A stretch of DNA of 64,000 nt from an uncultured Bacteroidota bacterium (lineage in GTDB: Bacteria; Bacteroidota; Bacteroidia; UKL13-3): NCBI GenBank assembly GCA_903883965.1, contig CAISCU010000031.1, forward strand, positions 1 through 64,000, in the 5' to 3' direction. Below are positions 18,873-22,655 of this stretch, piece after piece (positions within the stretch are counted from its first letter, which is position 1; every line of letters begins with the position of its first letter). A program made the translations under genes and the position numbers. Below the pieces are notes generated by a model. That model saw only the letters and a list, made by a program, of their open reading frames with translations. It had not been told where the DNA came from and did not search any database.

Positions 18873-21800
18873 ATGAAAAAAGCTTTTGGAATTGTATTGG
18901 GTTTGATTGTAGCTTGTTTAAGCACAAATGCGCAAAATTACGCCTCATCAGAAAATGAGTTTTACTGGAAAAACAGAAAACCATCTAGTGATTACTGGCA
19001 ACAAGATGTTCATTATTCAATTAAGGCTAGTTTATCAGATACCAACGATGTCATTTGGGGAACCTCAGAATTAACCTATACCAACAATTCACCCGATACC
19101 CTCAAAGAATTGTATTTCCACTTATACCAAAATGCATTTGTAAAAGGAGCCTATTTAGAGAATTTAAACCTAGCAAATGGCTTTAAACAAGAATTTGGCA
19201 GACATGAAATCAATGGAAGGGGAACTTTAATAAAAAAGATCAGTGTAAATGACAAAGCTGTACATACCAGTTTAGACAATACCATTTTAAAGGTTCAATT
19301 GAATCAATTTCTATTACCTGGAGAACAAGTAAAAGTATTGGTTGATTTTGAAACCTATTTTGATGAAGATGGAACCCAACGCAGACGCATGAAATTGTTC
19401 CGTGACAATTGGATGCACAAACATTATGATGGTGTTCATTGGTACCCAAGAATTTGTGTATATGACCGTAAATTTGGATGGGAAACAGACCAGCATTTAG
19501 GCAAAGAATTTTATGGAGACTTTGGCTCATTTGACGTAGAACTTCGTTTTCCTCATCATTTTATATTAGACGCAACAGGTACTTTAACCAACCAAGAAGA
19601 GGTTTTACCTGCTGATTTAAGACAAAAACTCGATATCAAAAATTTTGCTAAAAAAGAATGGGATTCAGAACCGAGTACCATTATTCAATCAGATTCAAGA
19701 AGGCTAAATTACAAAACATGGAAATACAAAGCCATCAATGTGCATGATTTTGCTTGGACAGCAGATCCTACTTATCGCATTGGTGAAAGTACTTTTAAAC
19801 TAAACAATGGAAAAGAAGTAAAAGTGGTGGCCTTGGCCCAAGAACCTCATGCTGCAGGATGGCAAGATGCTTGTGCATTTACAGCAAGAGTGATGCAAAT
19901 TTACAGTGCTGATTTTGGCAATTACATGTACCCTAAAATGATTGTAGCTGATGCCCAGGATGGCATGGAATACCCAATGCTTACGCTAGATGGAGGCAGT
20001 TCACCTGGCTATTTTGGATTATTGGCACATGAAGTAGGTCACAATTGGTTTTTTGGAATGGTAGGCAATAATGAAACTTACAGAGCCAGTTTAGATGAAG
20101 GCTTTACGCAGTTTCTGACCCATTGGAGTACAACCCGAATTTTAGGTGAAATCAAACAAAATGCTGCAAAAAAAGGCTATCAAAATAAAGCTATAAAACC
20201 CATCAATTTAAGAGAAAGTACCGTTTATTTAGGCTATATCAACGATGCAATAACCAACGAAGACATGCCATTGAATACACATAGCGATGACTTTAATTCA
20301 GCATTGGGCCATGGCGGAGGATACCGTGCAGTTTATTACAAAACAGCTACCATGTTGTACAACTTACAATATGTATTGGGAGATAGTTTGTTCCTATACA
20401 GTATGAAAAACTATTTCAATACTTGGAAAAATTGCCACCCCTATTTTGAAGATTTTAGAAACAGCATCATTCATAGCAGTAAAGTTGATTTGAACTGGTT
20501 CTTTGACCAATGGTTAGAAACAACTAAAAAAATTGACTACAAGTTGTATAAACCTAAAATGTTAGGTAAAAATGCAAATGGAAATTATGTCTATCAATTG
20601 AAATTGAAAAGAATTGGCGACATGCAAATGCCTATTGACCTTCATGGCAAAACAACTTCTGGCAGTCAATTATCATATACCATCCCAAATACCTATTTTG
20701 TAAAATCAGGTAATGCCCAAACATTGCCAATGTGGAAGGGTTGGGGCATGTTAAACAAAACTTATACCACCCAAATTGAAACAGAAAACGCAATTGAACA
20801 CTTGCAAATAGATTCAACTTATCGTTTAGCTGACATTAATTTATTGAACAATAACAATTGCCTGCCTATTCATTGCCAATTTGATTACCAAATTAAAAAT
20901 CCGCTTGATAGAAAACATTACCAATTCAAATGGAGACCAGATATTTGGTGGAATGACATAGATGGGTTTAAAATAGGATTGCACTTGAATGGCAATTACA
21001 TGCAAAAAAAATGGCAGTTTAAATTAAACACTTGGTACAACTCTGATTTAGCTTCAAATTACCCTAAATGGATGATGACACACTCAGACAATTCATTGAT
21101 TGATTACAAGTTTTGGTTTAAAACGTTGGTCGCAAAACACATCAATCTAATTGCACAATCGAGGTACCTTGATGGCTTATCTATGCAACAATTAGGAATG
21201 GAATGGTTACCAGGTAAACATATTTTTAAAATAGCTATCAAAGGAATGATAAGACCCAATGAAAAAGGCAATTACTATGTATTGGGAGACAATTCATTTG
21301 CAGCTAACCAAGCTGGTTACAATTCTTGGTACACCCAATTATGGGATGTAAAAAAACAGAACACAACCCTAAATTTAGAATGGGAGCACAATGGCAATTG
21401 GGGTGAAAACGGCAGTTACCAAAGCCAAATTGCGGCAAGAAGCAGTATAATGGCATCTGATTACAATTACTATGGCATTCAAGCTAAATTTAAATCAAGT
21501 AAAGAACTTTGGAAATTTGAAATTCAAAACCGCATATACTTGTATTGGTTTGAAGGCAACATTGCACCAGAATCAAGGGTATATTTAGGGTCGGCAAATC
21601 CAGAAGAAATGATGGAAAACCCTTTATCTAGAAGCAGAGGGTTAATACAAGCAGATTGGAATCAATATGGTATCAACGGCAATCATTTTCAAATGGGTGG
21701 AGGCGCAAATATCAGAGGATTAAATGGCTACCTCACTCCTACATCTTACAATAACAACCAATACTATATTTATTCAGGTAATAAAGCAGCAGCTGTAAAT

Positions 21801-22124
21801 ATGGAATTGGAATACGACAAATTATTTCCAATACAACCAAATGTTATCAGTAAATACCTTCACATTGATGCCTATTTATTTGCAGATGCCGGAATAATTG
21901 GAACAACCATTATTGAAAATAACCAAAAAATTGAACTCAATTCTGGTGTCAAATTCAGTGCTGGTCCAGGATTTGATTTTCAGATCAAACGCTTTTGGGT
22001 CTTAGATGAAATCAAACCACTCCATATTCGTGTTGACTTTCCTTTGTGGTTAAGTCCTGCTCCATATTCAGACCAAGATAATTTTAAATACAGATGGGTT
22101 CTTGGTATAAACAGAAGTTTTTAA
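18873..22124 (+). CDS. M1 metallopeptidase fused to a predicted outer-membrane barrel
   Basis: A 1083-residue exported protein. The start at 18873 gives a clean signal peptide (LIVACLSTNAQ); the 24 upstream codons precede it and were dropped. Residues 25-650 are an M1 gluzincin aminopeptidase: substrate loop DGMEYPM (in place of GAMEN), zinc motif H386-E-V-G-H390 and third ligand Glu409, exactly 18 residues later. From about 680 to the end the sequence turns to alternating amphipathic strands with many aromatic residues, a GGGANIRGLNGY segment near 940-950 that recalls the Omp85 RGY-type loop, and a C-terminal Phe (WVLGINRSF), the outer-membrane insertion signal. I infer a barrel-anchored peptidase; the barrel call is by eye only. 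Confidence 0.82.
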   Translation: MKKAFGIVLGLIVACLSTNAQNYASSENEFYWKNRKPSSDYWQQDVHYSIKASLSDTNDVIWGTSELTYTNNSPDTLKELYFHLYQNAFVKGAYLENLNLANGFKQEFGRHEINGRGTLIKKISVNDKAVHTSLDNTILKVQLNQFLLPGEQVKVLVDFETYFDEDGTQRRRMKLFRDNWMHKHYDGVHWYPRICVYDRKFGWETDQHLGKEFYGDFGSFDVELRFPHHFILDATGTLTNQEEVLPADLRQKLDIKNFAKKEWDSEPSTIIQSDSRRLNYKTWKYKAINVHDFAWTADPTYRIGESTFKLNNGKEVKVVALAQEPHAAGWQDACAFTARVMQIYSADFGNYMYPKMIVADAQDGMEYPMLTLDGGSSPGYFGLLAHEVGHNWFFGMVGNNETYRASLDEGFTQFLTHWSTTRILGEIKQNAAKKGYQNKAIKPINLRESTVYLGYINDAITNEDMPLNTHSDDFNSALGHGGGYRAVYYKTATMLYNLQYVLGDSLFLYSMKNYFNTWKNCHPYFEDFRNSIIHSSKVDLNWFFDQWLETTKKIDYKLYKPKMLGKNANGNYVYQLKLKRIGDMQMPIDLHGKTTSGSQLSYTIPNTYFVKSGNAQTLPMWKGWGMLNKTYTTQIETENAIEHLQIDSTYRLADINLLNNNNCLPIHCQFDYQIKNPLDRKHYQFKWRPDIWWNDIDGFKIGLHLNGNYMQKKWQFKLNTWYNSDLASNYPKWMMTHSDNSLIDYKFWFKTLVAKHINLIAQSRYLDGLSMQQLGMEWLPGKHIFKIAIKGMIRPNEKGNYYVLGDNSFAANQAGYNSWYTQLWDVKKQNTTLNLEWEHNGNWGENGSYQSQIAARSSIMASDYNYYGIQAKFKSSKELWKFEIQNRIYLYWFEGNIAPESRVYLGSANPEEMMENPLSRSRGLIQADWNQYGINGNHFQMGGGANIRGLNGYLTPTSYNNNQYYIYSGNKAAAVNMELEYDKLFPIQPNVISKYLHIDAYLFADAGIIGTTIIENNQKIELNSGVKFSAGPGFDFQIKRFWVLDEIKPLHIRVDFPLWLSPAPYSDQDNFKYRWVLGINRSF

Positions 22125-22136
22125 ACGACAATATAA

Positions 22137-22655
22137 ATGATAAAACCTACAGCTAATTATCCAGTCTATTTCCAAAAATACATAGACATGGTTCCAAACG
22201 AACAGTCTATTTTTACAGCTTTGCACGAGCAACTAATGGACACCATTGATTTGATTACCTCATTAGATGATGCAACGCTACAATCGGCTTATGCTCCCGG
22301 AAAATGGACCATTATGGAAGTAATTGGACATTTAATGGATACAGAAAGAATAATGTGCCATAGGGCGCTTACCATAGCAAGAGGAGACAAATCAAGTATA
22401 CCTGGTTTTTCTCAAGAAAGCTATGTGAGCAATAGCAGAATGGGTAACCGTAAAATTTTAGGTGTTGTAAAAGAATTTTCGTTGATTAGAGCCAATACCA
22501 TTGAATTATTCAGCCAGTTTGACGAACAAATGTGCAATGAAATTGGAAACAGCAATGGACATGACCTCATAGTAAGTGCCATTCCATTTATGATTTGCGG
22601 ACACGAAATTCACCACCGCTCAGTTATAGAAAAATTGTATATCGGTGCGCTTTAA
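22137..22655 (+). CDS. DinB/YfiT-family metal-dependent protein
   Basis: 172-residue four-helix-bundle protein of the DinB superfamily. The three metal-binding histidines fit: one in the first-helix region (VIGHLMDTE) and two in the last (CGHEIHHRSVIEKL). APGKWTIMEVIGHL is the family's PGKWS-type signature. DinB proteins act in thiol transfer (bacillithiol or mycothiol transferases) or have unknown roles. A bacillithiol deacetylase gene (bshB1) is encoded in this window, so a thiol-transferase role is possible, but this is inference. Begins 12 bp after the M1 peptidase gene; its stop overlaps the convergent gene by 4 bp. Confidence 0.85.
   Translation: MIKPTANYPVYFQKYIDMVPNEQSIFTALHEQLMDTIDLITSLDDATLQSAYAPGKWTIMEVIGHLMDTERIMCHRALTIARGDKSSIPGFSQESYVSNSRMGNRKILGVVKEFSLIRANTIELFSQFDEQMCNEIGNSNGHDLIVSAIPFMICGHEIHHRSVIEKLYIGAL

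Follow-up and report, generated by a model that had tools for sequence, protein, structure and literature searches.

The locus and its fusion gene

The window analyzed here is a stretch of 64,000 nucleotides from an uncultured Bacteroidota bacterium (contig CAISCU010000031.1). On its forward strand, one open reading frame, starting at the ATG at position 18873, joins an M1 metallopeptidase to a predicted outer-membrane barrel, referred to here as the M1-Omp85 fusion (Table 1). The segment GGGANIRGLNGY is present in the translation of 18873-22124, and the C-terminal residue is a phenylalanine. A first-pass annotation had reported this reading frame, its coordinates, the length of 1083 residues, the HExxH-x18-E pattern, GGGANIRGLNGY and the terminal Phe, and all of these are correct in the sequence. 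It had also placed a complete M1 peptidase ahead of a barrel. The peptidase is complete and includes domain D3, but the boundaries are shifted, with the M1 part ending at about residues 646–660 and the first barrel strand lying near residue 683. As dozens of relatives have the identical fused layout, the fusion is not an assembly artefact.

The fusion protein begins with a predicted signal peptide and ends in the last strand of its barrel. Lipoprotein anchoring through Cys-15 was considered and rejected because this cysteine is not conserved in the orthologues; the fit to a lipobox is due to chance. Searches of Pfam and NCBIfam at E values up to 10 gave no match to a T9SS C-terminal sorting domain in the fusion protein. 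Downstream, after a gap of 12 bases, a DinB-like gene (22137-22655) lies in the same orientation; its family occurs close to the fusion at 12 of 119 loci, which makes this a local link.

Table 1. Features of the M1-Omp85 fusion gene and its product, in window coordinates
Feature	Position	Strand	Basis and remarks
M1-Omp85 fusion gene (Bacteroidota)	18873..22124	+	1083 aa plus stop; open reading frame listing, same layout in relatives
Predicted Sec (SPI-type) signal peptide, residues 1-20 (..STNA, then Q)	18873..18932	+	Sequence and ortholog alignment
M1 N-terminal beta domain D1, about residues 45-309	19005..19799	+	AlphaFold2 secondary structure, Foldseek match
GMEY, residues 364-367	19962..19973	+	Counterpart of GxMEN exopeptidase motif; invariant in 73 orthologues
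HEVGH zinc motif, residues 386-390	20028..20042	+	H386, E387 and H390 invariant in 73 orthologues
Glu409, third zinc ligand	20097..20099	+	Invariant in 73 orthologues
Tyr488 in VYYKTA	20334..20336	+	Profile-aligned to catalytic Tyr of PepN (VYEKGA); invariant in 73 orthologues
M1 beta-sandwich D3, residues 556-646	20538..20810	+	Adjoins barrel, at the POTRA position of other Omp85 proteins; AlphaFold2, Foldseek
Omp85-type 16-strand outer-membrane barrel (predicted), residues 683-1083, terminal Phe	20919..22121	+	AlphaFold2, Foldseek; NCBIfam OM_YaeT below curated cut-off
L6 equivalent, residues 897-970, between strands 11 and 12	21561..21782	+	AlphaFold2 models
Arg948-Gly949 of GGGANIRGL, Omp85 (V/I)RG(F/Y)	21714..21719	+	R948 invariant, G949 at least 90%, in 73 orthologues
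FADAG, residues 1003-1007, strand 13, Omp85 FxDxG	21879..21893	+	F1003 and D1005 invariant in 73 orthologues

The M1 peptidase

Peptidase_M1 (PF01433) is the sole Pfam match of the fusion protein, with an E value of 1.6e-11 and 44.7 bits against a cut-off of 27.7. AlphaFold2 was run on the window protein aligned with 72 orthologues that were taken from the GTDB contig set, and the resulting full-length model has a mean pLDDT of 88.4 and a pTM of 0.86. In this model D1, a catalytic domain and the beta-sandwich domain D3 make up the M1 part. When the full-length model is compared with the Protein Data Bank using Foldseek, it matches ERAP1, IRAP and PepN with E values of about 1e-22 to 1e-20. The fusion shares D1, the catalytic domain D2, D3 and the catalytic residues with the family M1 enzymes PepN, ERAP1 and LTA4H. 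In these enzymes D3 is followed by a helical C-terminal domain, whereas the fusion has the barrel in that place.

The residues Met-365, Glu-366, His-386, Glu-387, His-390, Glu-409 and Tyr-488 are invariant among the 73 aligned orthologues. In the exopeptidase motif the glycine, methionine and glutamate are retained and invariant in the same alignment, with a tyrosine in place of the asparagine. Because GxMEN reads GMEY in the fusion, the specificity of its peptidase may differ from that of GxMEN enzymes. With moderate confidence, the main function of the fusion protein would be that of an aminopeptidase.

Identity of the C-terminal barrel

The barrel was also modeled alone (pLDDT 81.5, pTM 0.80), and both AlphaFold2 models contain 16 barrel strands, a count that joins a few strands listed in pieces. 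The closed barrel of about 16 strands expected from the first-pass annotation is thus predicted twice, and the alternative of a soluble beta-sandwich is not seen. While the region is predicted to be an outer-membrane barrel as that annotation had proposed, its membership in the Omp85 superfamily had been overlooked. All of the 50 best Foldseek matches of the barrel in the Protein Data Bank are TamA or BamA structures, including the BamA of F. johnsoniae, and the best E value is 6.3e-10. The TM-scores for these best 50 matches are moderate, 0.37–0.50 by query length.

In BamA, TamA and FhaC, loop L6 contains the motif (V/I)RG(F/Y), and strand 13 contains FxDxG. The fusion barrel has the Omp85 layout: it has 16 strands, GGGANIRGL lies in the long loop that joins strands 11 and 12, and FADAG is in strand 13. 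The first-pass annotation had already pointed to the GGGANIRG loop. The motif in the window protein reads IRGL (residues 947-950), against LRGY in the family consensus. Elsewhere in the phylum, distant fusions of M1 with a barrel (L133, L134, L136, L137 and L233) contain GG..(V/L)RGY, which is the textbook form of the Omp85 L6 motif. A strict pair of regular expressions for the two Omp85 motifs is passed by 94 of 112 orthologues and by about 1% of shuffled sequences.

Ordinary sequence profiles alone fail to reach Omp85, so that the barrel carries no family label. NCBIfam OM_YaeT (BamA/YaeT) matches the whole protein below threshold with an E value of 1.5e-5, and the barrel alone, at 2.9e-6, also stays far short of the curated cut-off; an NCBIfam BamA match is present in only 2 of 25 members with the fusion barrel. 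Pfam gives no Omp85 family match to the barrel, and a search of its profile against the sequences in the Protein Data Bank gave no Omp85 match. Comparison with local BamA proteins by HMMER and hhalign was no better than with reversed controls. There is also no Pfam match to a POTRA domain before the barrel, where just about 35–37 residues separate D3 from strand 1. The missing POTRA domain does not exclude membership, since the Omp85 superfamily is defined by its barrel (PMC4104836). Taken with the fold matches and the motifs, the barrel almost certainly belongs to the Omp85 superfamily.

PF01103 (Omp85) matches were found in relatives in frames of about 1135 residues that are not M1 fusions (for example G004:C15:50121, G017:C21:81115 and G005:C39:39421). 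These possibly represent another class of Omp85 fusion, for example of the PF00149 type.

Orientation of the peptidase

In outer-membrane barrels the long loops lie outside, and the short turns and both ends lie inside, in the periplasm. In the full-length model the segments after odd-numbered strands contain 3, 19, 2, 36, 6, 74, 2 and 14 residues (156 in sum), and those after even-numbered strands contain 3, 2, 4, 4, 2, 15 and 11 residues (41 in sum). Because the M1 domain enters strand 1 from the side of the short turns, it is likely to be on the periplasmic side of the outer membrane, as deduced from the strand order and loop lengths of the model. The pTM of 0.86 over 1083 residues suggests that the placement of the M1 domain against the barrel is fixed.

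The first-pass annotation had instead envisaged that the peptidase is displayed on the surface. The barrel would then carry the M1 domain across the outer membrane and hold it outside, in line with a former assumption about type Vd secretion. The order of enzyme and barrel does resemble type V secretion, and the linker is of moderate length; at about 35 residues it is in principle long enough for threading a barrel, which counts against the periplasmic model. However, the parity of the strands places the M1 domain in the periplasm, and L6 is long in the models, as in Omp85 proteins where L6 fills the lumen. PlpD, the model for this idea, has an enzyme domain that was long believed to be exported and has been shown to be held in the periplasm (PMC11116518). 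As the loop layout and the PlpD precedent both point to the periplasm, we consider surface display quite improbable.

Conservation, neighbors and history

The M1-Omp85 fusion is widespread in the Bacteroidota relatives, and orthologues are present in almost all that were sampled. Its cultured carriers include Taibaiella soli (L073) and T. helva (L084). All 58 sampled relatives match the fusion protein, most of them at full length and with 43–82% identity; the weaker matches (G035, G038, G047, G049, G052 and G054) represent M1-only paralogues, fragments or copies that have diverged. Among 296 genomes drawn from across the phylum, the profile of the whole fusion matches in 218, mostly through the M1 part, and this barrel is found in 58. 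The mean column identity is 59% for the M1 half compared with 43% for the barrel. No conserved operon partner was found, so the gene neighborhood gives no hint at a substrate; the commonest neighbor family occurs in 22 of 119 loci. One full-length orthologue, 44% identical, is on a contig labeled Phycisphaerales (L064, JASGCQ010000092.1), most likely a mis-binned Bacteroidota contig.

A tree of the M1 domains was made by a quick method with a midpoint root, and the rows marked as solo within the fusion group are fragments at contig ends. The M1 domains of the fusions form one group, in which L035 is a long outer branch. M1-only proteins of about 630 residues from the same phylum are mainly in a separate group, joined by some diverged long proteins. 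They lack the barrel and end right after D3, and their M1 part is about 30% identical to that of the fusion. A second M1 family of about 1000 residues, also present in the source genome, makes up a third group. The grouping implies that M1 domains with C-terminal extensions occur in several branches. Simple gene fission was rejected as the origin of the M1-only proteins because they form a clade of their own; the separate M1 protein of G038 is a paralogue and not a lost half.

In the source genome the second M1 family is represented at G000:C33:68213-69751 (L033:825-3860, P0003). Its C-terminal part of about 400 residues has no family match and contains neither RG nor FxDxG. Members occur in most relatives examined, and the family may be another barrel fusion.

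Barrels without the peptidase

Two genera retain the barrel after loss of the peptidase. In two species of genus g15 (L035 and L241) the full-length frame is retained, and both HExxH and GxME are lost. In three species of genus g18 (L034, L253 and L254) most of the M1 part is gone, and the barrel remains. All five copies keep RG and FxDxG. The copies look maintained, since their frames are open and they are about 40–45% identical.

Family f44 contains barrel-only proteins of about 400–470 residues that lack an M1 domain and are related to the fusion barrel with E values down to 5e-42. These loci (L192-L217 and L219) are mostly from f44 genomes. A Nudix-like gene commonly adjoins the barrel gene, and genes resembling greA and ackA are often close by; these neighbors were named by eye from the sequence.

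Because the barrel outlasts the peptidase in two genera and has stand-alone relatives in the phylum, it probably has a role of its own beyond anchoring. A barrel that is a passive anchor without activity, with its conservation reflecting the peptidase alone, would agree with the lower conservation of the barrel and with the clade of M1-only paralogues. Nevertheless, the retention of the barrel after peptidase loss and the abundance of barrel-only relatives in f44 make a purely passive anchor very improbable.

The same barrels are relevant to the idea that the protein is first of all an assembly or translocation factor, in which the barrel would insert or move specific clients while the M1 domain, in place of POTRA, would trim or clear their ends. 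An Omp85-type barrel with both motifs, lineages that kept the barrel after losing the peptidase and a stand-alone barrel family speak for such a factor. Yet the M1 half is better conserved than the barrel, and there is neither a POTRA domain nor an operon containing assembly factors. PlpD also provides an example of an Omp85 barrel that carries an enzyme without known assembly activity (PMC11116518). We therefore regard a primary role in assembly as possible but unlikely. About as unlikely is a broader proposal, in which the fusion would stand for an Omp85 subfamily so far unrecognized and nearly universal in this section of the Bacteroidota. Its peptidase would replace POTRA and work with the lateral gate, for example to trim or clear the ends of clients while outer-membrane proteins are being assembled or during export, and its insertase function would outlive the peptidase.

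Relation to known systems

The closest architecture to the M1-Omp85 fusion is that of PlpD, a patatin-Omp85 protein (PL-Omp85, type Vd). Both have an N-terminal enzyme and a C-terminal 16-strand barrel of the Omp85 type, and the enzyme domain is periplasmic in PlpD and predicted to be so in the fusion. PlpD, a homodimer, combines a patatin lipase with POTRA, whereas the Bacteroidota fusion has an M1 metallopeptidase (PF01433, M1 fold) and no POTRA. BamA, TamA and TamL share the 16-strand barrel fold, RG in L6 and FxDxG in strand 13 with the fusion barrel. Unlike the fusion, they lack an enzyme domain and carry 3 to 5 POTRA domains, and the sequence similarity of their barrels to that of the fusion is low.

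Ten Omp85 subfamilies were defined by Heinz and Lithgow in 2014, and none is described there with an M1 domain (PMC4104836). Their 'Metallo' subfamily has a PF00149 domain, which they term a metalloprotease (PMC4104836). It resembles the fusion in having an Omp85 barrel with a metal-enzyme domain other than POTRA at the N terminus, but the domain is PF00149 instead of the PF01433 of a true M1 peptidase. PF00149 is the calcineurin-like phosphoesterase domain. A search limited to open-license papers found no published M1-Omp85 fusion, which is not proof of absence, and the searched passages of recent papers on the Bacteroidota BAM and TamL do not mention one. The M1-Omp85 fusion reads as an apparently new Omp85 variant outside the ten subfamilies of 2014.

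Proposed function and implications

The explanation that we favor, with a probability of roughly 0.6 for the reading as a whole, is a periplasmic aminopeptidase anchored in the outer membrane on an Omp85-type barrel that probably has a role of its own. The fusion protein would be exported by Sec, and its C-terminal 16-strand barrel would insert in the outer membrane. The three-domain M1 peptidase would thereby be held in the periplasm just under the outer membrane, with D3 in the place of POTRA. There it would most likely strip N-terminal residues from peptides or from the ends of unfolded proteins that reach the outer membrane. The separate role of the barrel may be that of a scaffold, the binding of a partner or a residual assembly activity. 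The domain order, the intact and invariant catalytic machinery, the 16-strand barrel of Omp85 type, the wide conservation and the retention of the barrel after peptidase loss are computed features of the family. Beyond these, we infer the periplasmic side, the aminopeptidase activity, its substrates and the separate role of the barrel.

The outer membrane is built by Omp85 proteins. A widespread variant with a peptidase in place of POTRA, and with a barrel whose function seems separable, would extend the ten known subfamilies by one. It would allow a test of whether Omp85 barrels serve generally as scaffolds for enzymes of the periplasm, which is what PlpD suggests, or whether peptidases take part in the biogenesis of outer-membrane proteins. 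It also cautions that fusions of enzymes with barrels are not to be presumed surface-displayed.
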